Shown here: positions 4,387 through 60,600 of the stretch, one piece after another | How the letters are laid out: the number at the start of each line of letters is the position of its first letter | Numbering within the stretch: the stretch's first letter is position 1 | Assembly (NCBI GenBank): GCA_034231615.1 | Contig: CM067315.1 | Coordinates: 34,898,059-34,962,058 of the forward strand | Direction: 5' to 3' | DNA: 64,000 bases | Source of the DNA: Meghimatium bilineatum | Taxonomy: Eukaryota; Mollusca; Gastropoda; Stylommatophora; Philomycidae | Position numbers and translations under genes: made by a program | Notes under the pieces: model-generated | Databases searched by the model: none | The model's input: only the letters and a program-made list of their open reading frames with translations | Told to the model about the DNA's origin: nothing

Positions 4387-7300
4387 GTGAGTAGTGTCTA
4401 TTTGACAATATCTTTGCCATGAAGTTAGTCAAGTTATTATCTTGTACAATGTTGTAATAATAAGTAATCGTGATAACATTTTGTTGTAGGACTTAAGCCA
4501 TGGTAACATCTTGTTGTAGGAATTCGTAAGAATTAACCCATGGTAACATCTTGTTGTAGGAATTTGTAAGCATTAAGCCATGGTAAAATCCTGTTGTAGG
4601 AATTTGTAAGAATTTAGTCATGGTAGCATCCTGTTGTAAGAATTAAGTCATGGTAACTTCTTGTTGTAAGAATTTAGTCATGGTAACATCCTGTTGTAAG
4701 AATTTAGTCATGGTAACATCCTGTTGTAAGAATTTAGTCATGGTAGCATCCTGTTGTAAGAATTTAGTCATGGTAACATCCTGTTGTAAGAATTAACCCA
4801 TGGTAACATCTTGTTGAAGGAATTTGTAAGAATTAACCCATGGTAACATCTTGTTGTAGGAATTTGTAAGAATTAAGTCATGGTAACATCCTGTTGTAAG
4901 AATTAAGTCATGGTCAGGAGCAACACAGGCACCCACTGTCATACGGAGAAGCAAAAACAATAATCCACAACACATACACAGCAAAGTGGAAGAAACAAAT
5001 AGAAGAGGAATACAAACATGATGCATCTCCTTCAAAGATATCAACAGACTACAATATTTTGCCATAGAAATAGACTGCAGACTGTTGGGTCACCTTTACC
5101 GATTGAGGATCTCATACACAGATGAATGTCAATGTGGATCCCGAACCCAGACCCTGGAACACATACTTCAGGACTGTCCAACATACAAAGAGCAGAGACA
5201 GCAGACCTGGTCAGAGGATACAGACTTGAGACAAAAGCTATGGGGCAGCCGCTCTGACCTGGAGAAGACAGTGGACTTCATCTTGACGACAGGCCTGACA
5301 ATATAGCATGACCACAGATGCTGAACGCAGAAGAAGAAGAAATCATGGTAACATCCTGTTGTAAGAATTAAGTCATGGTAACATTTTGTTGCATATGTCA
5401 ATGTGATATCTTGTTGTAAGAAATAAATCAAGGTAACATCTTGTTGTAGGAATTAAGTCATGGTAACATCTTGTTTTAGGACATAAGTCAAGGTAACATC
5501 TTGTTGTAGGACTTAAGGTAACGTCTTATTGTAGGACCTAAGTCAAGGTGATCTGATCATAAGGCTTACGTCAAGGTGATCTGATCGTAAGGTTTAAGTC
5601 AAGGTGACATTGTAAGAAATTATAACCCAAATGACTGAAAATATATTTTATTTGTATAACTGAAACAGGAAACACAGTAAAGTAACCCATGATTACCTGT
5701 TAGACCTGGCCTATTTACCACTGGCTGCAGAAATTGGAGTTCAACTGGTATCAGGTTATGATCTTTCAGCTGATCCTACAGAGGTAAATACATTTTTTCT
5801 TCTCCTACACCCGTTTTAACGCCCCTCCCCTGATAGTTTAGCAGTATATAGTCCAGAGAATGGAGTACTTTATGTCCTGGTTTATATCTTACACCATGTC
5901 CTGGTTTATATCTTACACCTTGTCCTGGTTTATATCTTACACCTTGTCCTGGTTTAAATCTTACACCTTGTGGCTTGATTCATTAGAGTGTAGCATGGTT
6001 TTTTGATAAATTTGACCTTTTATAGGATTGAACAGCCAACACTATCGCCTAAACTTTATATTCGTCTCTTACCAAGTGCATAGCAGGTAACAGTATTGCA
6101 AAAAAGGGGAGGGGGTGTTCAACCTGTGTGCAATAGGGGAGAGTTTCTCTGGAGATTTCTTCCATACACAGAAGCAACATGAAGTCAGGAAAAAATCCGA
6201 AAACAGCAGATGGCTAAACAAACCTGGTTCACATCTTGTCTGCTGCTCTTTTTCTTCTTCTGTGTTCATTCTCAAACTCTTGCAAACCAACAGTTTGCAG
6301 TCCGGCAAATGGTATGCATTGTGTCATGATTTACATGGTTTATGGAAAACTGACTTGTATATATTCAGATGACATATTCTTATCAGTACTACATCCTGCT
6401 GGAATTCTAGTAGGACGATTGTCTTGCTACAAGAGAGATCCAGCGGGAGTTTCAGAATGAACATTGAAGAAGAAGGTCCTCCTAGTTATTGGTTATTATC
6501 TGACTGTAAGAGCATATAACAAAAGAATATCCGGACATAAGACCAAAGGTAGACCAAGAAAATGGTGGATAGAAAACATTAAGATAGCCTTGAATAAACA
6601 TGGACTAAATGCAACCAAGGTGACTCATCTGGCCTTGGAACGACAGCTGAAGCTTCCACCCTTACGCTTAATGGCAAGTGTGAATACAGTTAAACATCAT
6701 TCACTTGGGGACAGACAATAGACAACCGAAGTGACCACAAAGTGACCAATGAACAGTCGCATCAGTCAAGGTCAGTGACCCTATTTGAGATTAGCAACAG
6801 ACATCTAGATACAAGGACATAAAAATGCATCACACTTAAGGGATATTAACTTCGGAGTACTTCTCAATTATAGTTTTCGACAATGATCTAATGTAGCATC
6901 ACTTATCTTGGTATATCTGACTTCTCCATTCTTTTATTTGGCTGGCAACACAAAGTATACGCAAAGTGACCAATGAGTCAGAGCATTAGTCAAGAGAAGT
7001 GACGATGTGTAAAATCAGCACCCAGAACTATCCTGGAGAAGAACTGTGCAAATATTGAAAGGGAAATCCCAGCTATTTTTGGCAACAACTGACTCTTTAT
7101 GTGATGTTTTACAAGTCAGTTTTGTCTCCTTTTATATATCTAATTATTCGTGGATCAGCACAAAACTATTCTGGGTAACTTGGTTGAACTCTCAAACTCC
7201 CTTTTATCTACAGGCTTTAATCAAATCACATATTTTATGTTCAGTCGCAGATTGACCAAATTGTCAAAAGTGTGGTTAGTGGTTACAGGGAACTGACACC

Positions 7301-8913
7301 ACAAGAGCTGGCCAGGTTTCCAGCTGCCAAGTAAGATAATATGCAAGATAAATTTTTATCGCAATCAAATATTTAAGCCCAGAACTTCTGTGATGCTTAA
7401 ATTATTTATAAAATATACCTTTCAAGAGCAGAAAATGGAAACACTCACAGAAAATGATGGCATGAAATATGTAAAAAACAGTGTTCTTTTCCTCAATTGT
7501 ATTTAGTATAGTACGCCTATGTGGCAACTAGAATATGGACTTCTAGTTCAGGGTGGAAAGAACACTGTCTTTTTTCTATGCACATCATAGGAGATGACTA
7601 AGGAAAGTTGGGGGGATAGACTGACAACCTGTCACCTGTGAAAAAAAATATCATTATCACATTCTGTCTCAATTTCATTTGTGTCTTATATCAAATAATT
7701 CCCATGGGTGATAAAGAGATATAGACCAGTGGTCAGTACACCTGTTGCCCGTGTGTTGCCGAGGCCCGAAAGGGGAGCAAAGAATAGCAACACTTTACCT
7801 TCCACGCATGTCGTAAAAGGCGACTAAGGAGGTTATGGGATGGAGTTGGCTGTCCCATCCCATATAGGGTCAGTGACCCAAAGCCATGCTGAAGTCGGAT
7901 GTGTCAGGCTGAAAGGCGCAGATATTCACAGCATTGCTGTAAACGATGACACAACGCATTCCGTTCTCTGGACTACATCCTGCTAATCTGCAGAAGTTTG
8001 AGAACGAATGCAGAAGAAGAAGAAGAAGAAGTACACCTGTGTCCTTTTGTGGAAGACACCTAGGCGATGGGTAAATACTAGAAGTGGCATCACTGTGGAT
8101 TGGTAAAAAAATCTAATAGAATAATGATGAGTTAGTTGGCCCAGAAATGTGTGATGTGCTCCTGGCAGAACATGATAATCCTAGGTACTGGAATACTTCT
8201 GTTCTGTGACTAAACAAACATGCATCCATAAACCTTCCTTATACATCCATGCCTTTCAGACCTCATATGAGTTCACGTGTCTTCTCAGTTGTTTAACAAC
8301 TGAGAAGAACATGTGGTTTTTGCCAGAAAGGATGTAGATTGTTAAGAGCTATCGGCTCACAGCTAAAGGGATTATTTCATCATCATAATTTAGTATGGTA
8401 GCTATTCTTGTATGATGTTGTAAAGTTTTTGTTGTACCTCTTATAACATAATATGGCTAACAGACTCGGTAAAGAGGAAAATAAAAGCTAGCTCCAGTCC
8501 AGCAATGCTTTACTGAAAATGGAAATGTTTGGTAAAATGTGCAAATATTTCTTGTAAATTGTGACAGTTGTTAAGAAACACAATTTAATAAAATAATGAA
8601 GACATATCTGTTATTGAATAACATAGTGCAAGAAAATGGTTACTGATTTTCAAACCATAATCTGATTGGATCTCACATCCAACAACATAGCAGAACATTC
8701 TGATAAGGAAGGAGACACCATCTCACCATCTATGATATTATCAGTCCTAAGAAAGAGTTCACCAATCTACTAGCTCAGAATATAGTCATAGAGAAGGGAT
8801 TTACCAACCTATGCCTTACAGACAGACAAGGGTCTAAGTTCCATATACAGATAGGGTTTTATACCTATAATCCAACTACACTAACTTTCAATTGACCCAC
8901 ACAGTCTACTGTT

Positions 8914-11900: not shown

Positions 11901-14900
11901 GCATTCATTCTCAAACTTCTGCTGATTAGCAAGATAAAGTCCGGAGAAAAATGTCATGGTTTACAGCTTGACTGTAATATCTACATCTTTCAACTTGACA
12001 CATCCGACTTCAGCATGAATATGTAAATGTGACCATGATTCAGGTGAAGAAAGTCTGTGAGGTGACACTTGGTTATATAATGTATCAAGTCTGTGAGGAC
12101 ACTTGGTTACATAATGTATCAGGTCTATGTGGACACTTGGTTATATAATGTATAAAGTCTGTGAGGACACTTGGCTATATAAATTAGGGAACATCAACAT
12201 CACATATAGGCCTCGGTTACAAGTGAGTGCAATATTAGTCTGCCACATGTGGGTGTATTAGGTTTTGAGAGATAAGACACCCATGTCAATTGTGGGGCTC
12301 ATAGGAGCAACGAATGGCGAAACTTACTTGCCAAACATGTTGCAAGAGGTGATCAAGGAAACTTTGAGATTGAGCTGGCTGTCCCATCAGATATAGGGTC
12401 AAAGGGACTCAAAATCCATGCTGAAGTCGAATGTACCAGGCGGAAAGGTGCAGATATCGAAGTTGAGTTGTAAACCATGGTATAACACATCTATTTCTCT
12501 GGGCTACATCCTGTTAATCTACAGGAGTTTGAGAACTAACGAATAATAATAAGAAGAAAGATAAGAGTTTGTGTAATATAATTAGGCACAGATATTCATA
12601 GACATTTCTTTTCCTCTTTCCAAGTTTGCTGGTCAGTGTGACTTGGTTATTAATTGCTGTGGTCTGGGTGGAAAGGATCTATTGAAAGATGATGAAGTCA
12701 TGCCCACTAGAGGACAGGTGTGGAGGGTGAGTATTCTTTCCAACACTTCTTCTTCTTCTGCGTTAGTTCTCAAACTTCTGCAGATTAGCAGGATGTAGTC
12801 CGGAGAACGAAATGCGTTGTGTCATAGTTTACAGCACTGCTGCGATATCTGCGCCTTTCGGCCTGACACATCCGACTTCAGCATGGCTTTGGGTCACTGA
12901 ACCTATATGGGATGGGACAGCCAACTCCATCCCATAACCTCCTTAGTCACCTCTTACAACATGCATGGAAAGTAAACAGTGTTGCTATTCTTTGCTCCCC
13001 TTTGGGGGTCCCGGCAACACACGGGCGAAACATCTTCTTATACAAGATTGGTTCTCAGGCAACGAAGCACCTTGTCTGAGATATACATAATCAACCCACA
13101 TCCAAATTAACTGACAACCGTTTCCCAACAAGGCCATACAGAGAAATTTGGGTTCAGCATCCAAAGAAAACAAGAGATAGTAAACTGTCCTGGCACTGGA
13201 CTAACCAAATTCTGTTCATGAAATAGACCCTCTCTATGCTGAAACAGATGTGCCTAGTCAGAAGGTGCAAAATAACGCTGCTCCTTTAAATCAACAGTAC
13301 AACATACTTCATGCTTCCGGCAGAAATCACACAAACTTTGTGTTGGTTATTAGACAGCAAATGCAGAAGAAGAAGTAGAAGAAGAGACCTCTGAATTCAA
13401 GGTTAGGTTTCTTCTTACAACTCCGGGAATTGAAATCTTCTGGGCATGAAAGACAGCACTAGAGAAACTACTCCATTGTACATAGGAAGCAAGAGTTTAT
13501 ATTTCACAATTCCTTATGAATCAGGAAAACCACAGCAACAACAACAGCAGCAACAAAAACAACAGTAGGAGTAACAACAGTAAAAATCAGAACAGTAATA
13601 ACAGCAATATTAACAACAACAGCAGCAACAACAACAAACACCTTAACAGCAGCAATAACGTCAACATAAACAACAAATACAACATCAACAATAACAGCAA
13701 GAACACCAACAGCAGCAAGAACACTAAGAACAGCAGTAACAACAACATCACAAAGAACAACCTTAACAACAGCAGCAGCAACATTTCTCTAATTTAGACC
13801 CAGATTACACATCAACTTATGGACAATATTTCTGTTATTATATGGTAAAACTTTCATTTAAAATGATATTAAATCGGAGTATTTTTATATAAATCAGGTT
13901 CATGCTCCCTGGATCAAACACTTCTACATGTTCAGTCCAAAACCTGGACAAGATTACATTTACATTCTCCCTGGGTAAGCATGATTGGTGTGTAGTAGAT
14001 ATGGTTGGTGCAGGTATGGTTAGTGTGTAGCAGGTATGGTTGGTGAGTAGCAGGTATGGTTGGTGAATAACAGCCTCAGGTGTGGTTGGTGAGGGAAGAA
14101 TTATGAGTGGCTACTTTTAAAGCACTGTAACAGCTTTTGTTCCATATTTTTACAATCTACCAGAAAAAACCCTTCTGCTTAAGACAGAGTGTAATGAAGA
14201 TTATATTGACATGTAGATATTTTGTGATCAACTAGAGTTGGCTACAGCTAATCACATGAAATTACATTTATTTTGTAGCTTTTCTATCCTCAGCCTGGCC
14301 CACAGGGAGATACAGGTCAGACAGCTAAAGGTAAACATCCACTCTCCAGAGGGTTTTTTGTGACCTATTGACAGAAACATGCCCTAGAAATACTTTATTG
14401 TGGGTTATTGTGAGAGGTTACTTCATGCTTTTCATTGGCTGGCTAGCATACAAAGTTGGTTAGCAGGATTGTCCTGAGAAGGATATGTGTTGTGTCATGG
14501 TTTATAGTTTGGCTGTTATATCTGAATCTATCTTCCTGACTCATATGACTTCAGAATGGCCTTTTAGACCTATGGGGTGCTACAGCCAACTTCATCCTCA
14601 AACCTTCTTAGTTTTTCTCTTACCACATGCACAAGTTTGCTATTCTTTGCTCCCCTCTTAGATCAGCAACATATAGGAATATAATCTGCCAAAGACAGAT
14701 GTGTTTAGCCAGGGAAATGGTGCAAATAAAATGGCAACACAATGCATTTCATTCTCTGGACTACATCCTGCTGAAAGTCTAGTAGGTCCATTGTCCTGCT
14801 ACAGGAGAGATCCAGCAGGAGTTTGAGAATAAACGCTGAAGGCACATCATGACAATACATGTGGCTGTATTGGTAATATGGTTAAAAAAGATATAGAGGA

Positions 14901-17900
14901 TTCACTCCAATGTGCATATACTTGATTTCCCCATATGCAATCTGCTCCTTTTAACAAAAGCATTCTCCTTGTGGAGAGTGTTATTCATAACTTGAGACTG
15001 ATAATCTCCCCAAAAATGCACTTGTAGATAAAATGTACTATCAAGGGATCATTCTCCCCCCCTCATTATTAACACAATGCAAATGATATAACAACTAAAA
15101 CAGGTCTCAGAGTTCAAATCAGAGTTCAAGCATCATTGTCACCATGGATGAGGATTTTGATAAATGTTATACAGAGAGATGTGTTATAAAAGGATGTGTT
15201 AGAAGGATTCCACTGTATCTGTTTTTTTCGAACCCATATCATATAAGTCTGTGTGTTCATTGTAAAACTAATCAGCCTTGTGTTGTCTTAAAGTACTATT
15301 GTTATACAGTTTTACATCAGTCTCATGTTTCTTCTTCTTCTTCAGCGTTCATTCTCAAACTCCCGCTGGATTTCTCTTGTAACAGGACAATTGTCCTACA
15401 AGATTTCCAGTTGAATATAGTCCAGAGAATGGAAATGCGTTGTGTTGCCGTTTTATTTGCGCCAATGGCCCAACACATCCGTCTTCGGCGGTAGTCTCAT
15501 GTAATATTCCTTGCCTATATTGAGTTTACTCTTATACGTCTTCCATTTCATGATTAACTTATTCCCTCAGAATCAAAAACACTGTGTTGGGAGGAACAAC
15601 TCAGGTTGGAGACTGGAGAACAGAGATAGATGATGAGAATTCTGTCAATATCTGGAAGAGGGCACAGGAGCTTGTGCCTCAAATAGCTGTAAGTTTATAC
15701 TCTACTGCTATGTCAGTTGTATGACCATGTGGCAACCAGAGACTGGACTTCTAGTTCTTCTTCTTCAGCGTACATTCTCAAACTCCTGCTGAATTTCTCT
15801 TGCAGCAGGATCCTACTACATTTCCAGCAGAATGTAGTCCAGAGAATGGAAATGCGTTATGTCACCATTTTATTTGCGCCAATGGCCAGACACATCCATC
15901 TTCAGCAGACTTCTAGTTCAGGATGTAATAAAATAGAGCTTGCCCGTGTGTGGCGGGGCCCGAAAGCGGAGCAAAGAATAGCAACACTGTTTACCTTCCA
16001 CGCATGTCGTAAAAGGCGACTAAGGAGGTTATGGGATGGAGCTGGCTGTCCCATCCCATATAGGGTCAATGACCCAAAGCCATGCTGAAGTCGGATGTGT
16101 CAGGCCGAAAGGCGCAGATATCGCAGCAATGCTATAAACTTTGACACAACGCATTCCGTTCTCCGGACTACATCCAGCTAATCTGCAGGAGTTTGAGAAC
16201 AAATGCAGAAGAAGAAGAAATAGGGCTATTCTCTTCTTTCCAGGCATGTCATAGGAGACGACCTATTAACTGAAGAAATCAATGTTAGATGTGCAATCAC
16301 TATGGATGAGTCAACAAATCCTAGGTGCCAGCAATGTTAGATGTGCCATCACTATAGATGAGTCAACAAATCCTAGGTGCCAGCAATGTTAGATGTGCCA
16401 TCACTATGGATGAGTCAACAAATCCTAGGTGCCAGCAATGTTAGATGTGCCATCACTATAGATGAGTCAACAAATCCTAGGTGCCAGCAATGTTAGATGT
16501 GCCATCACTATGGATGAGTCAACAAATCCTAGGTGCCAGCAATGTTAGATGTGCCATCACTATAGATGTCAACAAATCCTAGGTGCCAGCAATGTTAGAT
16601 GTGCCATCACTATGGATGAGTCAACAAATCCTAGGTGCCAGCAATGTTAGATGTGCCATCACTATGGATGAGTCAACAAATCCTAGGTGCCAGCAATGTT
16701 AGATGTGCCACCACTATGGATGAGTCAACAAATCCTAGGTGCCAGCAATGTTAGATGTGTCACCACTATGGATGAGTCAACAAATCCTAGGTGCCAGCAA
16801 TGTTAGATGTGTCACCACTATGGATGAGTCAACAAATCCTAGGTGCCAGCAATGTTAGATGTGTCACCACTATGGATGAGTCAACAAATCTGACAGAAAA
16901 ATGTGCCCCAGAAGTGTGTGCTGTTTTCCTAGCAGGACGTGGTAATCCTGGTCCATTGAATACCTCCCTTCAGGGACTAAGCATGCATCCATGAACCCTT
17001 CTTACATGACCATGCCGTATATGATTACAGGTGCCACCTCAGTTATATAAATGAGAATCTGTGCTTTTGTCAGAAAGGCTATGGTCTGTCAAGAGTTACC
17101 TGGTCCCTGCTAAATGGATTACTTCATCATCTTCTTCAGATGGAGAGATTCTTGCATTGGCAACTTCTTTGTCATTGTGAGCAACAGTACTGCTGATATG
17201 TGCTCCCCTGTTCACATATATGGGTGGCTGCATCACTATCTCATATTATTTCCATGCATTTATTATTGTAAATAATGACCTTCTGATAGGCTTATGAATG
17301 TTAAACTCTATGGTACAAAACAAGAAGTTGAAAACACCATCGAATTCATACAAGAAACAACACTACAGATATAGACATGTTATCCATCTATAAACCCATC
17401 AGGGTTATAGGGGTACTCAATTTGTTGCATCAATATACAAGAGTCTTCCAGTGATATTTTTCCTTGGCAATGTGGATGATTGGGGGGAAAATCTTGACCT
17501 GTCCAGTCTTTGATATTGTCCTCATCAACTTTACCCTGAAATATCGTTTTTGACAGGAAATCATATCGGCATAAATGTCCAAACTATGCAAGTTGTCATT
17601 TTACTATTTCTTCTTCAGTGTTCATTCTCAAACTCCCACTGGATCTCTCTTGTAGCAGGACAATGGTCCTATTAGATTTCCAGCAGGATGTAGTCCAGAA
17701 AATGGAAATGCGTTGTCGTCGTTATATTTACGAAAATGGCCTGACACATTCATCTTTGGCGGGACACTATTATCCAAAGGCCTGTATCCATTTCCCTGGT
17801 GAGTGTCTAACTCATAACCATACAGCATAATAGATAGCAATAGTAAGTTATACATTCTAATCTTCACTCCACAACACTGACACAGTGGAATCCTGTTATA

Positions 17901-26269: not shown

Positions 26270-26535
26270 GGCCCCAGAAACACACGGCCAAATTTGATCT
26301 AAAAAGAGTAATAATTCATCATCTTTACCGACTAAAGATCTCATACACAGATGAATGTCAATGTGGATCAGGAACCTATACTCATGAACACATACTTCAG
26401 TATTGCCCAGCATAAAAAGAGCAGAGACAGCAGACCTAGCCAGAGAATACAGATTTGAGACACAAGCTATGGGGCAGCCGCTGTGGACTTCGCCCTGACG
26501 TTATAAAAATAACTGCAGATGGAACACAGAAAAAA
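26270..26535 (+). mobile_element. LINE 3' end, second copy of the 4915-5342 family
   Basis: The DNA closely follows 5090-5330: CTCATACACAGATGAATGTC, ATACTTCAG, AAGCTATGGGGCAGCCGCT. It ends GATGGAACACAGAAAAAAA. An internal deletion and stops show decay. Confidence 0.85.
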
Positions 26536-27065
26536 ATTCCCGCTTGTATCTCCTACCTCTTGCTCGCCCCCCCACCCGGACTATACCCCCAAGTAAGGTT
26601 TTCAATGAAATATGTCCAAAATATTTTATTTGCTTGATCTTTATTTCCTTTAATAATTCTTCATACGAAGTGTTGTTAGAACTTTCTGGAAACTGTATCC
26701 CCATATTTGATCATCTCTCTTGGCTATTTTTAAATATAAATTAATTAATTAATCCTAACCCAAGCAAGGAGACACGGGTTCCAAACCAGAACCTTGTTTT
26801 CTTCTGTTTCCATGATGTTCTCCCTATTCTTCTATACACCCACTTCTCAAAATCATCAATTCTGTCTTCTGAGCCATACATTAGTATAGAATAGATGTAG
26901 CATTCATATATTTCTCATTTTAAGCTTGTTTATAATTTGGTTCAGATGTTAATATTTTTCTCATGTCACTGAAAGTACTTTTAGCCATTTCTATTCTCCT
27001 TTTAACTTCTGTTTCACATTTGCTATCATTTGTGATTATGTACCCGAAATATTGATAAAGTTCTA
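26500..27065 (-). mobile_element. LINE ORF2 C-terminal half
   Basis: The minus strand carries [35 protein letters not shown] and [11 protein letters not shown], then RARGRRYKREF. This is the LYG...RR...GH...GRR order of LINE ORF2 thumb regions. Frames change several times. A sister copy lies at 55825-56270. Confidence 0.82.
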
Positions 27066-27544: not shown

Positions 27545-30500
27545 CTGCAGATGAGGAAAAAAAATAACCCATATGTTATATATTCCATAGGAGACACATT
27601 TCGTTTTATCTTTATACTCATTTTTTGTATCAATGCATCTAATTCTTATGAAGTGTGATACATCAAGTTATTTATACTTAACTCATAGCATGCTGTAGGT
27701 GGAATATTCTGACTGTTGCTATGAATCTCTTTCAACAAACAAATTATGATGGTAAATTAACACCATTCATCTGGGCAATATGAGAATCTAAAGTAGACAT
27801 AATTCACTCCTTATCCATTGGTATTTTAAGCAGGGTGACAGATACAATTATTGAGTTATTTTCTACAATCTATGAAATAGAAGCAATTTTTGAGGATTAT
27901 TTGTTTTTAATTCTTAAATATTTTGTGGTTTCACGGATGCAAATATTTCCCAGCCCCAGATAGCTGAATTGCACAGATATTTGTGTGTACGATGGGAAAG
28001 AAGTATCGTGAATGTAGTTAAATAGTGCCACATTTAGGTTACAATAATCTATGATTTTGCAAAATTTGTAAGTTGTAGGATCATTAGGCCTAGCTGATAA
28101 CGCATTTTTATTTTTAGCGGCATTTCAGCATTGAATTTATTGAAGTTTACAGAATAATTAGATCAACATATTTAATTTAATAGAAGATTAATAACACAGT
28201 TTGGTTACAAAATAACTTCAGAACATGCTTTTAGCAGCATCTTATCCTGGATTGAATATATCGAACATAAGGTGTCATATTTTCTTCCCGGCTTTATAAA
28301 ATATTAATTTCCAACTTTTCTCACATATACGCCAATAAAACATTACATTCAGCAACACCCACACAAAAAATATATTCAAAAAACCGAAAAAAATTCATTT
28401 TGAAATACCCTCCATAAATGATGTGTAATGCCCAAAAAAATGCAGGGGAACATTACTCAAGTTTAATGCTGAGTGCTAAAGGTTAAAGATCAAGAATAGG
28501 ACTTACATTTTGTATGAGACAGCAGCCATCATCAACTACCTTAGCATCTTGCTGTGAAATTCCATTAACTTCTGTCTCTGGCTTTAGGGTAGCATCATAA
28601 TCTCCATCTGGTCGAATTTTCTTTGGCTCCAGAGCATCAGTATCCAACAAATCACTGTCTGGCTTTCTCTGTAATATAGTGAGTGTTCAACAGTGAGGTG
28701 ACGCAGAAAAAGGCTAATGAGAAGTCTTTAGCGCCCATTCTCAAACTCCCACTGGATGTAGTCCAGATAATGGAAATGCAGTGTTGCCATTTCATTTGTG
28801 ACAATGGTCAGACATATGTATTCAGCTGTGGTCAATGGGGCCAACTTTAAAGTTATTAATGTAATTGCGAATTATTGTACATGCAATTACAGATGAAGAC
28901 GAATGTGTTGGGCCATTGCTGCAAATAAAACGGTGGCACACAATTCTCTGGATTACACCCTGCTAAAAATCTAGTAGGTCCATTGTTTTGCTACAAAAGA
29001 GATCCAGTGGAAGTTTGAGAACTAACGCCAAAGTACTTGAAATTTAAGAGATATAGCGTGATAACATAATAAGCATAGCAGTTTATTATAGTAGCCATTG
29101 CGAGTAACTGACAGTCACATCACACCACTCACCTTCTTTCTAACGAGATGAGCTATGTCCGAGACTTTCTGTTGAATGAAATAAAGATAGAATTATTACT
29201 ATAAATAATTTACATAAAATGAGATGTCTAAAAAAAAAAATCAGCAAATAGAACAAGAAGAGATCATGCTAACAATATAGATTACAAGAACTGCTGGAAC
29301 ATCTGTGGTCAAATATATTGAAATTAACATTTAACATGTGCCATGCCATCATCGAAACTCTCATCACAACAAAAAAACCAAAACCGCATAAATTCAAGAT
29401 AATGTGGTAGCTTTATTGCAACACGTCGTTATGCAGTGTGGTAACTACAAAAAAGTTTAAATTCAGTCTTTTCTTACGCTGAAGTCGGATGTGTCAGGCC
29501 GAAAGACAGATATCGCAGCAACGCTGTAAGCCATGACACAATGCATTCCGTTCTCCGGACTACATCTTGCCAATCTGCGGGAGTTTGAGAACAAACGCAG
29601 AAGAAGAAGTCTTTTCTTCTGGGGAAATTGTAAACTATTGCTGTAATGAAATCTAACTACCGTTTCTCATTGTGCAAAGCAGATGGCAAATCAGAGATTT
29701 TAAATTTATAGTAATGTGTCCCAATCACTGCAAAATGAGATGTGTCCCAATCATTGCAAAATGAGACGTGTCCCAATCACTGCAAAATGAGTTGTAAGCC
29801 ATTTTTAGTTAACTCTTATGGATTGTTTCTAATGATGAAGAATTGGGAATTATGTTTGTTTCCAAAGATTTTATGCACATGTTAGTTTTGTTATGAAATG
29901 TTATCGAACAACAGGCAGAGACATACTATATTGAATATAAATATGTTGTGTGTTGGACAATTACTCTTAAGACCTAGTCAAGAATGGATTGACAAGGCTA
30001 GTGATCAAGCAACACAATGTGCCATAGTTAGAAAATCAATTATCATTGAATTGTACCAGGCCAATGCACTTTTTTCACAGCAGATATTTGGGTAAACTAT
30101 GTAAACACCATAAGCCAATCGCAATGTGAACTTGGAATTTAATTGTAATTAAGTTTCCCTATATGTACCTAGTATCTCTCAATGAAGAAGTACACTTACT
30201 ACAGAGAGCACTACTCCTAGCATGTCAACTCAGTAGCTTCAAGTGTTAATCCATACAAAAATAATCCATGTAAACAAAACGCCGAAGCTGTATTCAAACC
30301 CGTGACCCCTTACGCAAGTCAAGTTTACCAATGAGCTGTTTATTATTGGACTTTAAAATCTGGAGGGAAGTTGAGAACTAATGAAAGACAAAAAAAATTT
30401 AACTGCATCTAACTATAAAACTTCTTAACATTTCCAATCAAGCATCCGTATTTTGACAAAAAAGTCAGTATAACTACACACATCAAAGTAGTTAGAAGAC

Positions 30501-33661: not shown

Positions 33662-36600
33662 TGCACTCCTAGGATTAAATATGGCTTCTGTTTTGTTATC
33701 ATACTTCAGTGATAATCAAGGGTGTATTGTGTAACCCAAAAGAGGAGCACACATAGTTACAGCGACACAAAAGGTAACGTTCAAGAAAGCGATGCACTAA
33801 TGTCTATGCCGCGTAAATAAAACCTCATGATGAAAATGTTTACTTCTTTGTTACACAACTAGTGAGATTTCTTCTTTAGTGCTCATTCTCAAACTCCCAC
33901 TGGATCTCTCTTGTAGCAAGACAATGGTCCTACGAGATTTCCAGCAGGATGCAGCCCAGAGAGAGAATGGAAATGCACTGTGTCGCCATTTTACTTGCGC
34001 CAGTGTCCCGACACATCCGTCTTCGGCAGACTAGTGAGATTTGAATACTGACACTAAAAGAAAAACTGCAGTTTTACAAAGAAGACAAATACAGATTCAC
34101 CATTTTGACCACAAAAGCTTTTGTCAAGATAAAGACAAACAAAAACTAGAAAAAGATCAACAAAACTACATATAAAGAAAGTATGAAGGCATCTAGTGCC
34201 GTAAGAGAATCGGAAGTAGAGTAGATTACAACATAAATAGGCATGATAAGTAAAATTGACTAATTAATAAATCAAAGTTAACACTGCCTGATCACAAATC
34301 TAACCTTAACAACAGAAATTATATTCTAGATGTTAGATAATCCTTCTAGAGGGTGGCACACAACTCTTTATTGAGAAATCACTGTACCTTAGTCTTGATT
34401 TCTGGAATGAGCTGTAGCAGCTCCTGGATTTCATCTTCATACTTTTTACACTGGTCCAACTCAATGTTTTCTATCAAAGACAAAATAATTGTTTTAAACA
34501 AAATGGTGCAAACATATTTGAGTTATGATTCTCCATTTTGTTACAGGAAGACTGAAAGGGAGGCAAAGTATAGCAAAACTGTTCACCTTCCATGCTTGCT
34601 GTAGGAGGCGACTAAAGTTATATGATAGAGTTGGCGGTCCTATCCCATATAGAGTCAAAGTTATCCGGAAGTCATGCTCATGTTAGATGTGCCAGTTCAT
34701 ATATTACAACAAAGCTATTTTCTTCTTTAGTTCGCCTGCAAAGTGCTTATATTTGAAGTTTTCTCCTCTATAAACTTCAGTATTTTGCAATCTGTACTGA
34801 TGTCCATATAGTTATTCTTCCACTGTTATTTCTCTGGACCAGTGTATTTGCCTCAGCATTTTATATTCTGAAGAATAGACAGCAATTCTGCTGTCTTAGG
34901 TGTCTGTCCACATTTTGTGTTACTAAACTAATTAAACAACTGTAAACTGATGCATTCTGTACTAAATCCTGATAATCTGTGGGAGTTATGAATGCAGACC
35001 CACATAATAAATCACGCATAGGCTTGCTTACCAGCGTGGCAGACAGGGCCTGGACTTCTATAGTTCAGGTTGTAAAGAATAGGACCACAGTATTCTTTCC
35101 AGGCATGTCATAGGAGGCGAATATGGAAAGTTGGGGGATAGATTGACAACTTATCTGTGAAAACAATCATCATTGTCACATGTCTTGTCCTCTATTAATA
35201 ACTCCCATGGATGATTAAGAAATGCAGGCCAGCTAACAATGCACCTTTAGTGGCAGACTCCTAGATGACGGGAATGCTAATGTGTCACCATTGCAGATGG
35301 ATCAACAAATCTGACGGAAAAATGATTATATAGTTGGCGCAGAATTGTGTTACTGATAGGAACAGGCAATCTACCAGATGTATCATTTAGTCTGGCCTTC
35401 TAAATGACAGCTAATCACAACATTAAAAACAAACTGGTAGTGGTCTTGAACAATGTTTTTTGGGGCGTTTCAAATTCACATCGGATCTCTTTCGTACGAG
35501 GATGTTCATACTAGATTTCCAGCAGGACATAGTTTAGAGAATGGAAATGCACTGTGTCGCCATTTTATTTGTGCAAATGGACAGATAGACAACTTCAGCA
35601 TTGGTAACGAATACGCCCAGCATTTTTACCACTTTCACCTAACGCCTGTTAACTATATTGTGATAAGAGTACAGCAGTACGAGAGAACAAAGGTAACTAG
35701 TCAAGCATGTTTATAATTTTTGCTGCTATGTACATGGCTAGACAGCCACTGACAAATGAAAACATAGAAACTGTACAATTGTGGATAATGACCTCACCTT
35801 TGTCTTCACCATTCACTCCTTTCTCTTTAACCAGTTCACGGAGCGACTCTGCAAATATGAGAGAGAATATAACAATAAATGAGCGTGTAATGCCTTTTTT
35901 GTCCTCCACTAGATGTGGAGTTTAGAGCAACTGTGGCTACTAGTTCTATTGGCACACCAATTACATGACAACCAAAATTAGATAACACAATAGAAACTAA
36001 AGGTATATTTTCCAATATTCTCTAACCAAATAACAATAAAACCACAGAGGATTGGCTTCATTTTACTCAGGTTCTATGTCTATTCTGTCCATCTCAACAG
36101 AGCACATAACAGTAGCTTAAAACGATAATCCACAGACAAAAAAATTCACTTGCATACAAAACATCCAGCTCTGTAGCATGAAGTTGTGACTCTTGAATAT
36201 TCAGAAAGCAATGGCATCCTAATCAGTATTAATATTACTGAAAATAACAGTCTAAATATTGGGTTGAATAGAATATGATATCAAATTTTAAAAAATATCT
36301 GTGTTCTTGTGAACAAAAGAACATATGGCGTAACCACAATGCTGATAACTTACAGTACAAGTAGAAAGAACAACACAAACCCACCAATTTTTGACTCAAT
36401 GACTTTGATAGCTTCTCCATAATGGTGAACAGATTTTTCATATTCTCCACTGAAGCCATACGCCAAACCTAGCTGATAGTAGGTCTCAGCAATCTGTCTG
36501 TCATTGGCAGGAAGGTATTTTTGTTGAATCTTGTAAGCATTTTCCAAGTCCTCTACAGCAGTTGCATGTTGCTCTTAGAAATAGAACCAAAAAAACCAAT

Positions 36601-42600: not shown

Positions 42601-45600
42601 CAAATCAGCCACCAATGATTGTGTAACATTATCAAAAACTGATTCCGCGGCAGAAGAGAAATTGCGTAATTGTAAACACAGCATGCTAAAGTTTAATTAC
42701 ACAACATACAAAAATGTGTACACAAAGCACCTGGAGATATCAAACAGCCATGTTCTAACGCAAGAAATTGATTATACACAATGTTGGGCCATTGGCGCAA
42801 ATAAAATAGCGACAACGCATTTCCATTCTCTGGACTACATCCTGCTGGAAATAGGAGCATGGTCCTGCTAAAAGAGATCTAGCAGAAGTTTGCAAACGAA
42901 CGCTGAAGAAGATTATACACAAAAAGTGTACTTCAATTTGCAATCCAACAGCACATTGTGTTGAGACATACATCTGTAATAAATTTACTTAATTAACACT
43001 ACTTTACATAATTCCCAATTAGTTTATTATTTATAGATAATTTTTGTTATTACATAAATGTTTAATTGGTACAGATCAATTTGCTTTAAAGAATAAGGAT
43101 ATCACTGTAACAACACTGCATCTGGCATACACATTGTACAAGGTGACTAAGGTTTGGGGTGTTATTGATTGACTCCATAGATCAATGTAATCCAAAAGTC
43201 ACGGATACCCTAGTCAAGCTTCTCTATTCAACAACACTTCAAAATCCCTAATTGTATTTATTCTTTGTACTCTGTACATAGAATTTCTGTTATTACATAC
43301 ATAGTTTGTCGATCTGGACCAAGCTTCTTTAATGGAATTTTACACTACTACAGAAATTGTTCGACTATTTCTCTCTATTCACATTCAGTTTAGCTTTTAA
43401 AAACTTTTAGAAATATACAAAAGAATATTTGAGATGCCCTTTGCAAACACATTCGCAAGTCTTTTAGTAGTGTGTGGATTACACTTACAGCACATATATC
43501 CCATGATACAATGGAGTTATGTGATGAATTGTCAGATGTGAACAAACAGGTGCTAGACCCACTTTCTTCATACTGGTTACAGGGACCAATTTGGTTCATT
43601 TAACAGATTTAATTTACCGATACTGGCACATTTGAACGGAGAATCCAGAAAGAAAATAGATGATAAACGGGACAGCCGAAGGATAAATTGCAAACATGAA
43701 ATGAAAATTTACCAATAAGAAAAGCAAGAACAGACATGGATGACATGAAATAGAGGAAATATCAAAGCTAAAAATACCAAAAATATTCAATTATAGACAA
43801 TTAGATACTTAACATGCGGGGAAAAAAAAACAAACCAAACAATGGCTAGAAACAAAATGCAGAGAAATAGAGATGTCAGTACAATAGAAGACAAAAGAAA
43901 TGCATATGGAGATAAGACAGATCACAAATAAAAATAATTTTTGCTTATGCTGTTCAAGAAATCGCTACAGCCACATAATGCGGGTTTGATGGCTACATCC
44001 TGAATAGGATGCTACCAATTACCAATTTTATCTTAGTTGGGTTGAGCTTTTCTAGCATGCAACATATTCACAGAAGATAAATTAGCGACATTATCTGCTT
44101 TTACAGACAATTACAACCGATGTTTACATGGCTAAGATGTTATCAGGTATTCTGCTCTTTAAACATAAGATTGTGTGCATGAGAGTTTATTATAAATATT
44201 CTGAATGTTCACGCACACAATGGATCTAACGCTATTAAAGAAAGTCACAGCACAAATCCTTACCTCCTCTTTCTCATCTCCGTTTTTGTCACCATCCTGA
44301 ACATCATCTTCAGCATCTATATCTTCATCATCTTCACCTACAATTGAGCGTTGGCAAAGCACAGAACACATTCACAAAAATTATACAATATCTATTAATT
44401 TCTAACTTATTTAGGAACTATTTATTATCTCTAAACAAAGACTTGCCCTAAAAACAAAATAAGAACAAGTTAGATAATTATTTCACTCAGAACAAGTCTA
44501 TAGGAGCTCCTATCTCTTATTCAGTGTGTTCTACAGAAAACATTAACTAAATGTTAGTTTATTCGGTACATGCTTAGCAGATGTGGCCTATTTTTTATGG
44601 AATTAATATCATACATTAACAAAATGAACTTTCACTAAAGGCGCAGCCATCGATCTGCATGCAACACACTGGAGGAGGAAATGAATGTAAAGAAAAAATC
44701 ACTGGGTGCATTATGTGAAGATCGAATTAGTGCTAGCAGGCTCTTCACATTTTTCAAAACCTCTGTGCCATGGAAGCTCAATGTAATCAAACCTACTATT
44801 AAAAAGATACTGTTATCACGTGATGAGGCCACATTTGTGTAACATGTACAGTTTAATATCATGATCCTTATATTCCACCAATTTCTAGGGACAATCTCAG
44901 GTCCTGATTTGAAACAGACGTATAAGAAACACACTGCATCTTCAAATGGTCAAACTATATTCACAGCATCCGCACGCTGGATTGAACTATGTATCACTCA
45001 CAACCCCCTCCTCCCAAAAACCCCTGCATATCTCACACCTGTTATTCCTTACTAAAAATGTTGACTTTTAGTTCGGCCACACACGAGGCATTTCAGCTAT
45101 TGTAGTCCTGAAGGGGTGTTACAGACCTGACATATTTATTACCCAGCGGTGAATGAAATAATTCGTGTGGAGGCTTGGATTTCGCTTCTGGTTCAAAGAT
45201 ACCGTTTCTCAATTTTGCGAATTTTATACAGCAGCCAGAGTTTGTGCATTTGCAAGCACAACTCAACATTTTCCATTGTCATATTTTTGTACAAGTCCTA
45301 TTAGGTTGTCATTGTTTTTGACCAGTGCACATTCAATATTTATACAGGTAAGACAATTTCGTTGTTCTTCGTGTTAATTTAGTAGGCCTAATATCATTAC
45401 TTTACATACAGTGTCAAATTTGTTAGATCATCGTTTATCATAAGAATGCAAAATAAACCTATTATGCCACGATCAAACACTAGTTTAGCATGTATATCTA
45501 GTTAGATCTCATTTTACTTGTGCAAATATGATCGAAATTAGTTACATTGAGCAATTAGATAATGTAAAAGATTCATTCCTTGTGTAACATTAACGTTACG

Positions 45601-51600: not shown

Positions 51601-54600
51601 GCCAATTTATCAGCACTTTCATTCCTACTGATACCTATTTGACTTGGTTATCTACTGTAGTTTAGTGTTGATGCCATAGTATGTAAGTATGTTTCTTATA
51701 GTTTTCTCTGTTGTTGAATTCCAGTTTTCAAGGGTTTGTAGAGTAGACAGAGTCTGAATACTTCTCACAGCTTCTATAGTTGCCTTTTCTTTTCTTATGT
51801 TCAGTGACTATGTTTGCATAAATTTCACAGACTACTGCTTGTGTTAATCTCATGCCACAACAAATGAAGTGGAGAGTTTAGCTTTGTATTCTGTTCAAGA
51901 GCTTTTTGATGATGTAACCTGCAAGGGGAGATTATATCTAACATGGATCTGACATATTCTATGTATGCATGTCTAAGTGTTGTCTTTGCTTCCCAGGATG
52001 TGCTTGCAAATGGTTTTAGCATGTTGAATCTCCTAGATGCTTTTTTCAGTGATATTGTTAATAAAGTTGTTGAAGGCTAGCCCCCTGTCTAGTTGAACAC
52101 CTGGGTATGTCTGGTTTTCTGTGCCATTTATTTGAGCCCCTTCAAGAGTGATTTTAAGTTTTTTTTGTTGCTAAGTGTAAATATGGTATATGTGGTTTTA
52201 CAGGTGTTGACCAGTTTCCAGAAGTTGCATTATGTTGATATTGTAAGAAGGGTTTTTCTAAGTCTCCCAGCAACCTGGTGTTAAGTCTGAGATACATTTG
52301 TCCTTATGACAAAGGTCATCTGCAAACTAGACTTGCTAAGCAAGTCAGGGAGATCATTTATGAAGATTAAGAATAGGGTGCAGCTGAATCTTGGGGTAGC
52401 CCCTACCTCAAGCGTACATTTGGATTTGTTTACTGCAGTTTGCATGGTTCTGTCAGGTAGTTCTTAATCCATTTAAGTATTCAAGAAATGTTGATTCCAT
52501 TAAACCTCACTGCTGAAGTTTCTGGTCTGGCAATTGTTTAAGCGAGAACCAAGTGAGGCTTCTGTGATTATTGTGCCTGAGAGACCAGAATGTTATCAGC
52601 AAAGGATTATATTCTGGCTTTGGTTAATTGTTGCCTTGTTATCATTATGGCGTAGACACCAAATATGACTTGAGAAGTTAGTGAACCTGTGGTAACTATG
52701 GATACATTTTAGCATAGTACAGAACTGCTGATACTCATTAAATGATAAATGGTTATAATTTGTTATTCTCAATGTCTATACTATGGAGCATCAAAATTCA
52801 TAAAGAATGAAAGGATAGCACACATGCACAAGTAGCTGTGGTCATATTGGAGACGGACAAAGTAGACATCATTACAACTGTTTATGGCCACACATGGAAG
52901 AGGATATTGCTATAAATCAGAACACGATGTATCTTCGGTTCAATTCTACTGCGTTCGTTCTCAAACTCCTACAGATTAGCAGGACGTAGTCAGAAAAACG
53001 GAATATTTTGTCATGGTTTACAGTATTGTTGCACCTTTTGGCTTGAACATCCAACTTCAGCATGGCTTTGGTCCACTGACCCTATATAGGATAGCCAACT
53101 CCATCCCATAACCTCCTTAGGTGCCTTACGACATGCATGGAAGGTAAACAGTGTTGCTATTCTATATTTCCCTCTTGGATCCGGCATCACAAGGGCGCTA
53201 TGGTTAAATTATTCAAATCATCATCAGAAACATGAAGGACATGTCACCCTATTAAACAAGTATTTTTAAACCAGTGAACCACAAGAATCAGCAGCACTAT
53301 CTTTTGACTGCTGATGAGTGCCCATTGGTCTGTTAGGATTCAGCTAAATGACTAGCCGATAGCTCAATCAATCAAGTGTCATGCTGAATGTTTCTCCACG
53401 ACTCTGTCTTTTGTGTTGCCAATAAGCTTGGTTGGTGAACTTCTACCGTGCCACAATACTAGTATGTCTAGCAACTTTTCTCTTTGTCGCCCCCTATCTC
53501 TTCCCCATAATCTTTCCAGTGGTTATTAAGTGTTCAAGCTGTGTTCTTCTCAGCACAATCCCTAGAAACCGTGACCAAATGTCCTAAATATTTGATCTTT
53601 TTTTTCGCCAGCATCAATGAGAACCTCTGCATTAATTTTCTTTGCTGTCCATTGTATTTTCATCATTCTTCTCAGAAACCACATTTCTGTAGCCTCTAAT
53701 TCGCTTAAATTTTTTTGTTTACAGTCCCTGCTTAAATACACCAGATAGATCATATTTAGACATAAAAACAAACCAAATCCAGTATGATATGGGTTGGAAC
53801 ATGATATGATTACAAAGAAATTTGTAGAAACATACAACAAAATCACAAATGTCTACAACCATAAAACATTCTGAATAATGTATTCTATTGATAGAAGAAA
53901 TGCTTGCATTGAGTTAGAAACTATAACTATTGTTACAGATACAACTTGGGTGTAATATTGGTGCACAAACAAGCTATTGGCTTGCAAGCATTGAAATCAG
54001 TAAGAGGAACACCGCCGAAGACGGATGTGTTGGGCCATTGGCGCAAATAAAACGGCAACACAACGCATTTCCATTCTCTGGACTACATTCAACTGGAAAT
54101 CTTGTAGGATCATTGTCCTGTTACAAGAGAAATCCAGTGGGAGTTTGAGAATGAACGCTGAAGAAGAAGAAGTAAGAGGAACGTCTACACATAACCCAGT
54201 ACATCTAAATTAACCAGGCAATAGTTCATACAACACAGGGTGCCAGCTAAGCACTTTTTATATGTGTTGCAAATATATTTAATCTTACACAAAAACATGA
54301 CATGGTCAGCAAGTCTTCAAAAATTTGATGGTCCAGGTGTTATTTTTGTGTTAAAAATTTGCGGTTTTGTAATGTCTCATAACATTGAGAAGCTTGACAC
54401 CAAACCAAATATGAAACAAAACTGAAAAAAAGTCACAAAAATGATGGATAAATAAAATAAATGTGGAACTAAGTTACACAGACAGACAAGAAAAACCAAC
54501 AGATAAAGACTGCAGCACATCATACATTTTAAAAAAATGTGTTTTTTGTGAAAAAACGTCTTTACCATCTTCTCATACCATACATATGTGTGTATCTATC

Positions 54601-57600: not shown

Positions 57601-60600
57601 ATTCTGTTGGAGTCATATAAGCTGATTTGGATTTCTAAAATGAATGATGAGGTGGTCAACAACACAGAAGCAGTTGTAGAGTTTGGCAATCAGAGGTTTT
57701 TTGGCAATCAGAGGTTTTTTAAATAGCCAGTTTTATTCTTTGTGGTACAGTAGATAGTTCTATGTTTTTTACAAATTGTCAAGAGGGGCACATATTAGCG
57801 CAACTAATTCCAAACACACCATACATGTGCTGTTTGAGTCTGCTGTGGCCTGTATTCAACCTAAAAATTATTTATCATTTATTCCAAACGTGGATTATCA
57901 TCTTTTTGTCTGAATGGATGAGTTGAGTCAATGTCATGTTTATTAATCTTGAGTCAATGTCATGTTTATTAACGCCGGACTTCATTTCTGGAAATGAAAC
58001 AGAATCATCTATTGTTTCTAACTGACGTCCAATTTTGACTAGCTGTTCAATTCATAGGTGCGATTTTAAGTGGAATATGACTCGTCATCACAACTCCTGC
58101 CAATTAAGCAGTATTTTGAAGAACATGTGTTGTCTTGGTTTACAGCTTAGCAATAGGCTGACAATTTCACAATTCAAGCATGGTGTTTTTGGGGGTCATT
58201 TTGCATTGACAATCACACACAAACAACCCCCCCCCCCAATCTGTCTCATGAGTTGTTTATTAGGTAAGAGATTTTTGCTAGAATGGTCCTGAAATTCAGA
58301 AAGGCATTTGCCCTACTTGATTCTAGACAGTATATAGTCTAGAGAACGGAGATTTGTATTTATGGAAATGACCAAACACATCCATTTGTATTTAATATGT
58401 TTAGTGTTTTACCAATTCTGAATAGTGGACATCTAGAGTCATATTGTTGGTAGAAGAGTCGTGAGTCACAAGCTGCTTAGAATTGCACATATAGTAAGTA
58501 CACTGGCCTTTCACTAATCTGAATGCTGAATTATGTTGCTGTATGGGCAGTTATGTACATGGTCACAAAGTTAATATTCTTTGCTCTCTTTTCACACTGG
58601 CAACATGCAGGGGAAACATATATTCACTAGTTAAAATATGAAATGTGTTATCTATTATCTTCACTCACCTCCTTCTAAAGCTACACCCAACACACTGCTC
58701 TCCATGCGACCCAACTCTAGTAGGGCAGAGCCACAACAATAATATGCATCTGCACAATCTCTGGACAGTTCTCCACAAGACTTTACCCTGGAGACAAGAA
58801 AAGATTTGCACAGCATGATTATCAGCATACATTTTATTGAAATTAAACTTGTGTGAGAGCCAAACTAATTGCAGGGGAATGCACAGAAGATAAGTTTAAT
58901 TTTGAGCATCAGAGCTCAGACATATTCCATTAGGTTTCTATCATCACCACCAAAGGATTATCAATGAATATTGTGTCAACTTACAAAGGCAATCACGGAT
59001 CTCAACAACTCGTATCTCCTGTATCTTCAATCAGGATATTTATATACGTTACCATGCCATATGTTTAGTATTTTTTTCAGGCTCTCTCCAATTTTCACAT
59101 TGTTTTCCAAACTCTCCTGTCTCAGCATATTGCTTTTCCCAACATTGGTTTTGAAGATAGCAACAGTGTTGCTGTAGAACACCATGTAGAAAGCAAATGC
59201 CAGGCCATTCATGATATATTTTGCAGTATCAGTTATTTAATCTACAGCACACTTGATAAGTTTCAGAAGCACAATTGCACCTAAGATAAAAAAAAATTAA
59301 AAAATAAAAGTATGAGTCTTATGTATGTTTCTTCAGAACTTCACTCAGCACTAAGAGTAGAAACCAATGTTCTTCAGTTTGAGCGGTGTGTTACTGTTCT
59401 TTATAAATCTTTCATCTAAGACTCAGCCATGCCCCCCTCTGATGATTGTCCTAAGAAGAATCACTTGGTTTTGTGTGTTGGTCATCTAATGCTTATTTTA
59501 AAGCTTGTAGTGGCACCTTATTCTCATTCGTACTAAGTACACATCAGATATAAACCCATATTCTTATTGAGCTTCTTTCTGCATTTCATATACCGGACAT
59601 TCCTGAAGAATATGCTCTACTGTCTGAGGCCATCCATTCCTTGATATTAATCCACACGAATTCCCCCCACCACACAAAAGATTGTTTTAGACAGGGAGTT
59701 GGCCGGATGCACTCTGCTAGACTAACGTATCCATCTTGTGATGTTTCCCACTTATATCTCTGCACACCTCTTGCTCATCTACCCTTGACTTTACCCTCAA
59801 GTAATGTCTTAAAAATTTGTTTACCAGCAATCCAGAGAGTACTTGTTCGCCATCACCGAGGGTGCATGCAAAATTTTATACATTGATATCGCGGACTTAA
59901 AAAATTTGTATAAAATCGATCTAGCGCGAGAGAGCATTGAAACTTACTGTGTTGTAACGACTGCACTTTCTGAATGAATTTGAAAGCTCCAGAGTTATTT
60001 CAAATGCAAAATGCTACTTATAATGCTAGGCCTAGATTTACATTAATTTCTATACATCCTACAATATTACTTTCGAAATCTTTTATATTTCATGATAAAA
60101 ACACATCTACAATGTCTATGTATTCCACAAGTGCCACAATTTTTACACACATTATTGCAATAGGTATTACTGTTTTACTGATCTATCATAACAATTGTCG
60201 AAAATTGTCAGGAAAGTGCTAACACTACATTTGAAATATATCACCAAAGTAAACAGCAAAATAAAATATAGAAAACACCAAAATATATACAAATACTAGA
60301 TTCTCAGCCAATAAACAGAATTTTCCCCATCTTTATTACCCCCCCATAATTTTCACTTTGACCAATTTTTTTGGCAATTCACTCCAGTTCTTTTACCACT
60401 GATATACAATGTGAAAACCAATGAACAAAAATATAAAAAACCCGCCGAAGACGGATGTGTCGGGCCATTGGTGCAAATAAAACGGCGACAACGCATTTCC
60501 ATTCTCTGGACTACATCCTGCTGGAAATCTAGTACGGCCATTGTTCTGCTACAAGAGAGATCTGGCAGGAGTTTGAGAAATGAACGCTGAAGAAGAAATA

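Follow-up and report, generated by a model that had tools for sequence, protein, structure and literature searches.

The closest described counterparts of the elements considered here are LINE/SINE pairs with a common 3′ tail, a survey of which by Ohshima includes 58 SINEs (PMC3747384). In such pairs the LINE and its non-autonomous element end alike and in a short repeat, as is also the case here. The shared block can be long, the tobacco TS SINE, for instance, having ~100 bases in common with its LINE (PMC3747384). Compared with these pairs, the block described below is limited to 7 letters and the GAA repeats after them; the LINE 3′ UTRs measure ~19–27 nt up to the repeats, and variants of the tag occur in several LINE families. 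In molluscs, I-superfamily LINEs of the Nimb and Ingi clades carry the same three domains as the LINE studied here (PMC10294476, PMC11203168). The I element, however, is given a tail of TAA repeats (PMC3747384), whereas the LINEs here end in GAA repeats. On the SINE side, the MetaSINEs and the Nin-SINE of Lottia are short composite retroposons like SINE A and SINE B (Nin-SINE: PMC11121367). Box A and Box B are reported for the Nin-SINE (PMC11121367), whereas SINE A and SINE B showed neither a B box nor a tRNA head. A GAA-tailed LINE/SINE pair is not named in the titles and abstract openings searched, a search that lay mostly outside subscription papers.

The window, i.e. the whole stretch of 64,000 nucleotides that was analysed, contains two copies of a LINE, here termed LINE1, together with copies of SINE A (~275 bp) and SINE B (~158 bp); the copies described are listed in Table 1. 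The reading frame of the first LINE1 copy runs to a stop after ...TTGLTI, beyond which lie a short 3′ UTR and GCTGAACGCAGAAGAAGAAG. The second copy had been proposed by the original prediction and is indeed the same LINE; its end, GGAACACAGAAAAAAA, fits the loss of CG from GAACGCAG. At ≤1 mismatch, GAACGCWGAAGAAG occurs 17 times in the window, as opposed to 0.03 times expected in shuffles. The first copy sits within a tandem array (window 4480–5540) with a unit like GTAAGAATTTAGTCATGGTAACATCCTGTT, which leaves its target duplication without unique limits. To judge by eye, this array is flanked by exon-like stretches of a D-aspartate or D-amino-acid oxidase-like gene.

Table 1. Copies of LINE1, SINE A and SINE B in the window and their 3′ ends
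Feature	Position	Strand	Remarks
5′-truncated LINE1 copy: C-terminal coding region, zinc-knuckle-like motif, stop, short 3′ UTR, tail	4917..5342	+	92.1% to LINE1 copy L020 over 4917-5340
3′ tag GAACGCA + GAA-type repeats	5323..5342	+	end shared by 17/20 and 16/20 copies in the genome
SINE A copy, CG-decayed tag GAATGCA + GAA repeats	7746..8029	+	11-bp target duplication AGTACACCTGT
SINE A copy (aligned part), tag TAACGCA	12753..13026	-	94.9% to SINE A consensus
SINE B copy, tag GAACGCT	15329..15492	-	10-bp target duplication ACATGAGACT
Second, decayed LINE1 copy	26319..26536	+	aligned part 26319-26482, 85.4% over 164 bp; end GGAACACAGAAAAAAA at 26521-26536
SINE A copy from consensus position 144 on	29478..29607	+	11-bp target duplication AGTCTTTTCTT
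5′-truncated SINE B copy, tag GAACGCT	42782..42910	+	12-bp target duplication GATTATACACAA
SINE B copy, tag GAACGCT	54011..54170	+	12-bp target duplication AGTAAGAGGAAC
SINE B copy, tag GAACGCT	60442..60595	+	13-bp target duplication AAATATAAAAAAC

A LINE that ends like a SINE may simply have landed beside a SINE tail, which the original prediction had itself named as the case that would refute it. This can be dismissed with near certainty. In the genome containing the window (1.61 Gb, 32 contigs), GAACGCAGAAGAAG stands exactly at the 3′ end of 17 of 20 other LINE1 copies picked by DNA search from 40 scored copies, the remaining three (L013, L017 and L028) being 1 or 2 letters off. Since this DNA query itself held the tag, a repeat set was drawn with only the RNase H-region protein as query, taking 20 of 143 scored matches, ten near the top of the list and ten near its bottom. 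Here, the tag is exact in 16 of 20 copies, with a CG-type change in L095 and other differences in L089, L090 and L098. The flanks after the repeat run differ between LINE1 copies, and host tandem-repeat sequence directly follows the copy in the window. The end is thus intrinsic to the family, as had been claimed, rather than an adjacent SINE tail.

By its domain set, LINE1 appears I-superfamily-like, with an apurinic-type endonuclease, a reverse transcriptase and an RNase H, the combination described for this superfamily (PMC11203168). Pieces of copy L024 matched Exo_endo_phos_2/Exo_endo_phos (PF14529/PF03372) and RVT_1 (PF00078), RNase_H (PF00075) was matched on copy L011, and a C-x-C-G...H-I-L-x-x-C motif can be recognised by eye after the RNase H. 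The longest LINE1 frames span a few hundred codons in the 20 copies read at length and up to 861 codons in the protein-search list, with none near the 1,300 codons of LINE2, the next family described. A seemingly double RNase H in L024 was rejected as a feature of LINE1, being due to another LINE (LINE3) inserted there; the nested LINE3 copy is truncated and lies at 5858–6475 of the oriented L024.

LINE2 and LINE3 were met by chance beside or inside LINE1 copies, with L023 (LINE2) and L024 (LINE3) as the sources of these long-frame families. LINE2, on which PF00075 was matched as well, ends in GAACGATGAAGAAG (tag GAACGAT) in 10/10 copies read; it yields 143 scored matches of 96–98% identity (the query itself aside) and frames of up to 1,300 codons. 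LINE3 ends in GAACGAAAGAAG / ...GTGAACGAAAGAAG (tag GAACGAA), likewise in 10/10 copies read, with 150 scored matches and frames of up to 1,305 codons. Over 85 nt near the 3′ end, all 20 high-scoring copies of the two families are identical to their consensus or one change away from it; together with the many long frames (~1,300 codons), these near-identical 3′ ends suggest recent activity. In LINE4 (L100, L117 and L122), GATCGCAG / ...CTGATCGCAG precedes the GAA repeats in 3/3 copies (tag GATCGCA). The C-termini of LINE2, LINE3 and LINE4 resemble that of LINE1 by eye, and all four families have 3′ UTRs of ~19–27 nt ahead of the repeats. Judged from these ends, the tail is a trait of several related-looking LINE families, each with its own letters, and so does not single out LINE1.

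LINE5, which has a different C-terminus, is a weak control for the tail: within ~100–150 nt after the stop, a region that stops short of the true end, no GAA tail was seen in 4/4 copies (L099, L102, L106 and L121), and three of the four hold GAACGCTCACC without repeats. About 100 nt past the stop of L102, L106 and L121 lies GAGGAACGCTCACC, again without GAA repeats and containing SINE B's GAACGCT. The LINE survey as a whole is small and favours abundant families, with 14 out of 150 RNase H matches traced to their ends; six of these 14 ends are unreadable as LINE ends (L103, L104 and L105 of one eight, L118, L119 and L120 of the other six). Downstream of another RNase H match, a stretch in L101 (G000 C1:52736649-52736869) ends in GATAAGATAAGA and perhaps belongs to a LINE group whose tail consists of another repeat. 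In the window itself, positions 34727–34872 match the 3′ part of LINE3 at 69.5% on the minus strand, perhaps as part of an older or further LINE family.

SINE A copies end in GAACGCAGAAGAAG (tag GAACGCA) and SINE B copies in GAACGCTGAAGAAG (tag GAACGCT), with many CG-decayed forms. Three blocks of the two families align in the same order at 81%, 92% and 90% identity, so that SINE B corresponds to the 3′ half of SINE A plus an insertion; their common end is about GGAGTTTGAGAAYGAACGCWGAAG. Both carry the tag-type end, as the original prediction stated; being related, however, they count as one case of tail-sharing rather than two. The label ‘SINE’ rests on size, a recurring 5′ end, abundance and target duplications. 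ARAGORN and Rfam each returned 0 hits for a tRNA-like head or known RNA, a B box is absent from both families at ≤2 mismatches, and A-box-like sites occur at 1–2 mismatches. The SINE A body may resemble that of the Nin-SINE or the MetaSINEs, which we take as a lead only. Exact genomic matches to a 29-mer taken from the SINE end number 23,473; SINE B as a DNA query gave no matches. A third SINE type with a different body and TTTGAGAGC / TTATTTGAGAGC ahead of the tag was seen twice (L037:3207 with GAACGCT, L051:985 CG-decayed), with no target duplication called at either. On G000 C13, SINE A copies of equal score recur every ~35–41 kb at ~19.73–19.89 Mb and 6.02–6.06 Mb, a pattern that would fit tandem repetition of a large segment.

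How strong is the match between the LINE and SINE ends? The LINE had been predicted to share its tail with both SINE families, which holds exactly for SINE A, with its GAACGCA; SINE B ends in the same kind of tail with one letter different. The chance that the 7-mer ahead of the LINE1 run equals that of SINE A is 1.4e-4 under LINE1 composition, and 1.6e-3 for coming within ≤1 mismatch of SINE B's. The common block consists of these 7 letters plus simple repeat, and the longest exact match to LINE1 is 13 nt for SINE A (whose consensus is cut within the repeat) and, for SINE B, 8 nt that consist entirely of repeat. Relative to shuffles, the 3′ ends of LINE1 (z -3.41) and SINE A (z -2.75) fold better; those of LINE2, LINE3 and SINE B do not, and no hairpin common to all five of these folded ends, as in stringent-type LINEs, was evident.

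A structural reading of the A/T difference between the tags was considered and dropped. A stem formed by CTGC...GCAG in SINE A and CAGC...GCTG in SINE B around a GGAGTTTGAGAAY loop made the change look compensatory; the pairing was rejected because it represents one difference between two related lineages. It is broken in two of the ~100 listed copies of the 29-mer, and energy folds favour other hairpins. In ten SINE copies read that end in LINE2's tag GAACGAT, the upstream letters are CAGC (8), CAAC (1) and CAGT (1), none having the CATC that would pair with GATG.

The insertion sites of LINE1 and the SINEs are likewise similar. Target duplications were called in 36/71 SINE A, 19/37 SINE B and 11/24 LINE1 copies reaching the 3′ end, with lengths of 9–16 bp in 33/36, 10–13 bp in 18/19 and 11–15 bp in 9/11 cases, respectively. 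The motif [TA][TC]/[AG], which was picked after inspecting the sites, marks the duplication start in 25/29 SINE A, 13/17 SINE B and 11/12 LINE1 sites, compared with a fraction of 0.256 among 20,000 simulated insertions in which the ambiguity between tail and target was included. For this count, 29 of the 36 SINE A and 17 of the 19 SINE B duplications were kept, calls in tandem repeats, microsatellites, short fragments or without flanks being excluded; the 12 LINE1 sites comprise 9 of the 11 duplication calls (one with its boundary from an earlier reading) and three from that earlier reading. At position -2, T reaches 0.72 in SINE A, while LINE1 has A at 0.58 and T at 0.42; T alone shows no excess at this position in LINE1 (p 0.30, 12 sites). 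TT/A-like nick sites are common among endonuclease-bearing LINEs. For this reason, and because the motif was chosen post hoc, the signature supports a shared type of machinery rather than a particular partner. Median divergence from the consensus, with CG sites excluded, is 5.1% for SINE A copies met by chance (n 23) and 6.3% for SINE B (29). By the same measure it is 1.7% for SINE A (27) and 2.3% for LINE1 (21) among best-hit copies, tiers that are biased low and overlap each other.

What these ends argue for is a tail belonging to an I-superfamily-like LINE group (LINE1–4) with very short 3′ UTRs, a 7-letter tag GAWCGNN and GAA repeats. SINE A and SINE B RNAs would be copied by the reverse transcriptase of one of these LINEs, an enzyme that would accept RNAs ending in the tag plus repeats and nick the target at about W-Y/R (often TT/A), leaving duplications of mostly 9–16 bp. 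SINE A would most likely have used LINE1, whose tag it carries exactly, and SINE B some LINE of the group, with a minority of its copies carrying LINE2's tag. We regard this account as a whole as probable. That the SINEs use this LINE-group tail is very likely and mobilisation of the SINEs by a LINE of the group is likely, while LINE1 as the candidate partner of SINE A is plausible, with about even chances. Beyond the shared ends, coding domains, duplications and insertion preference that were observed, we infer that the tag is recognised and that the SINEs are copied in trans, on the principle of shared tails in known SINE/LINE pairs outlined in the survey cited above (PMC3747384). The tag plus repeat would be the sole candidate signal for a SINE to copy, since LINE 3′ UTRs of only ~19–27 nt leave little else to share. 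Of the partnership originally predicted for LINE1, the shared tail and the similar insertion signature thus stand; the choice of LINE1 itself does not follow from the tail, given the near-identical ends of LINE2–4.

Two other readings bear on this account. With a probability that we place slightly short of even, the SINEs' partner is another, unsampled member of the LINE group, ending in GAACGCTGAAGAAG or in the longer SINE end (GGAGTTTGAGAAYGAACGC), and the match between LINE1 and SINE A is mere family resemblance. This overlaps the group-level part of the account and rivals only the naming of LINE1. SINE B's GCT is rare in LINE1, with one case among the ~100 ends listed from 763 exact genome matches to the pattern GACCACATGCTGAACGCWGAAGAAG. 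The tag letters are not the same across the four LINE families, and the letters TTTGAGAAY ahead of the SINE tag are in none of the LINE ends read, the stretch nearest by eye to the SINEs' GTTTGAGAATGAACG being GTTTCAAGTGAACG upstream of the LINE3 tag. All of this speaks for such a partner, yet no such LINE was seen among the 14 of 150 RNase H matches followed.

Convergence, on the other hand, seems unlikely. Here, the GAA run alone would matter, any GAA-tailed LINE could copy the SINEs, and the GAACG tag would have arisen by chance or as a side effect of priming. Simple repeat does make up half of the shared letters, and the last letters of the tag vary; moreover, many target duplications start with A or GA, so that base pairing between repeat and target may be enough. 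Against this, GAACG is the consensus in LINE1–3 and in the SINE groups seen, and a 7-letter identity with SINE A is improbable by chance, as calculated above.

The preferred reading, copying by a LINE of the group, points to a group of candidate LINE partners for a highly abundant SINE superfamily by way of an unusually short shared end, and raises the question of the minimum number of letters that lets a foreign RNA be accepted by a LINE reverse transcriptase. A genome with two same-end LINE families that look recently active would constitute a compact natural system in this respect. One could go further and imagine a minimal, swappable tag: the enzyme would read no more than ~7 letters and the GAA repeats, every LINE family would have a version of its own, and SINE lineages would switch partner by 1–2 letters, with SINE A carrying the LINE1 tag, 2,439 ends the LINE2 tag and most SINE B copies that of a third LINE. 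We consider this extension doubtful. Of the ten GAACGAT-tailed ends read, nine are SINE B copies and one has only ~33 nt of SINE end. The 2,439 SINE ends of this form compare with 20,963 for the three other letters together at its variable position, 3 G and 3 T being found among ~100 listed, so that the GAT form is seemingly in excess over other changes at that letter. On a weak tree that omitted nine SINE B rows lacking a clear tail and one of the ten GAT rows (L114, the copy with ~33 nt of SINE), the nine GAT-tailed SINE B copies require six changes, a value equalled in 51/500 shuffles, and constraining them as one clade is not rejected (p-AU 0.255).
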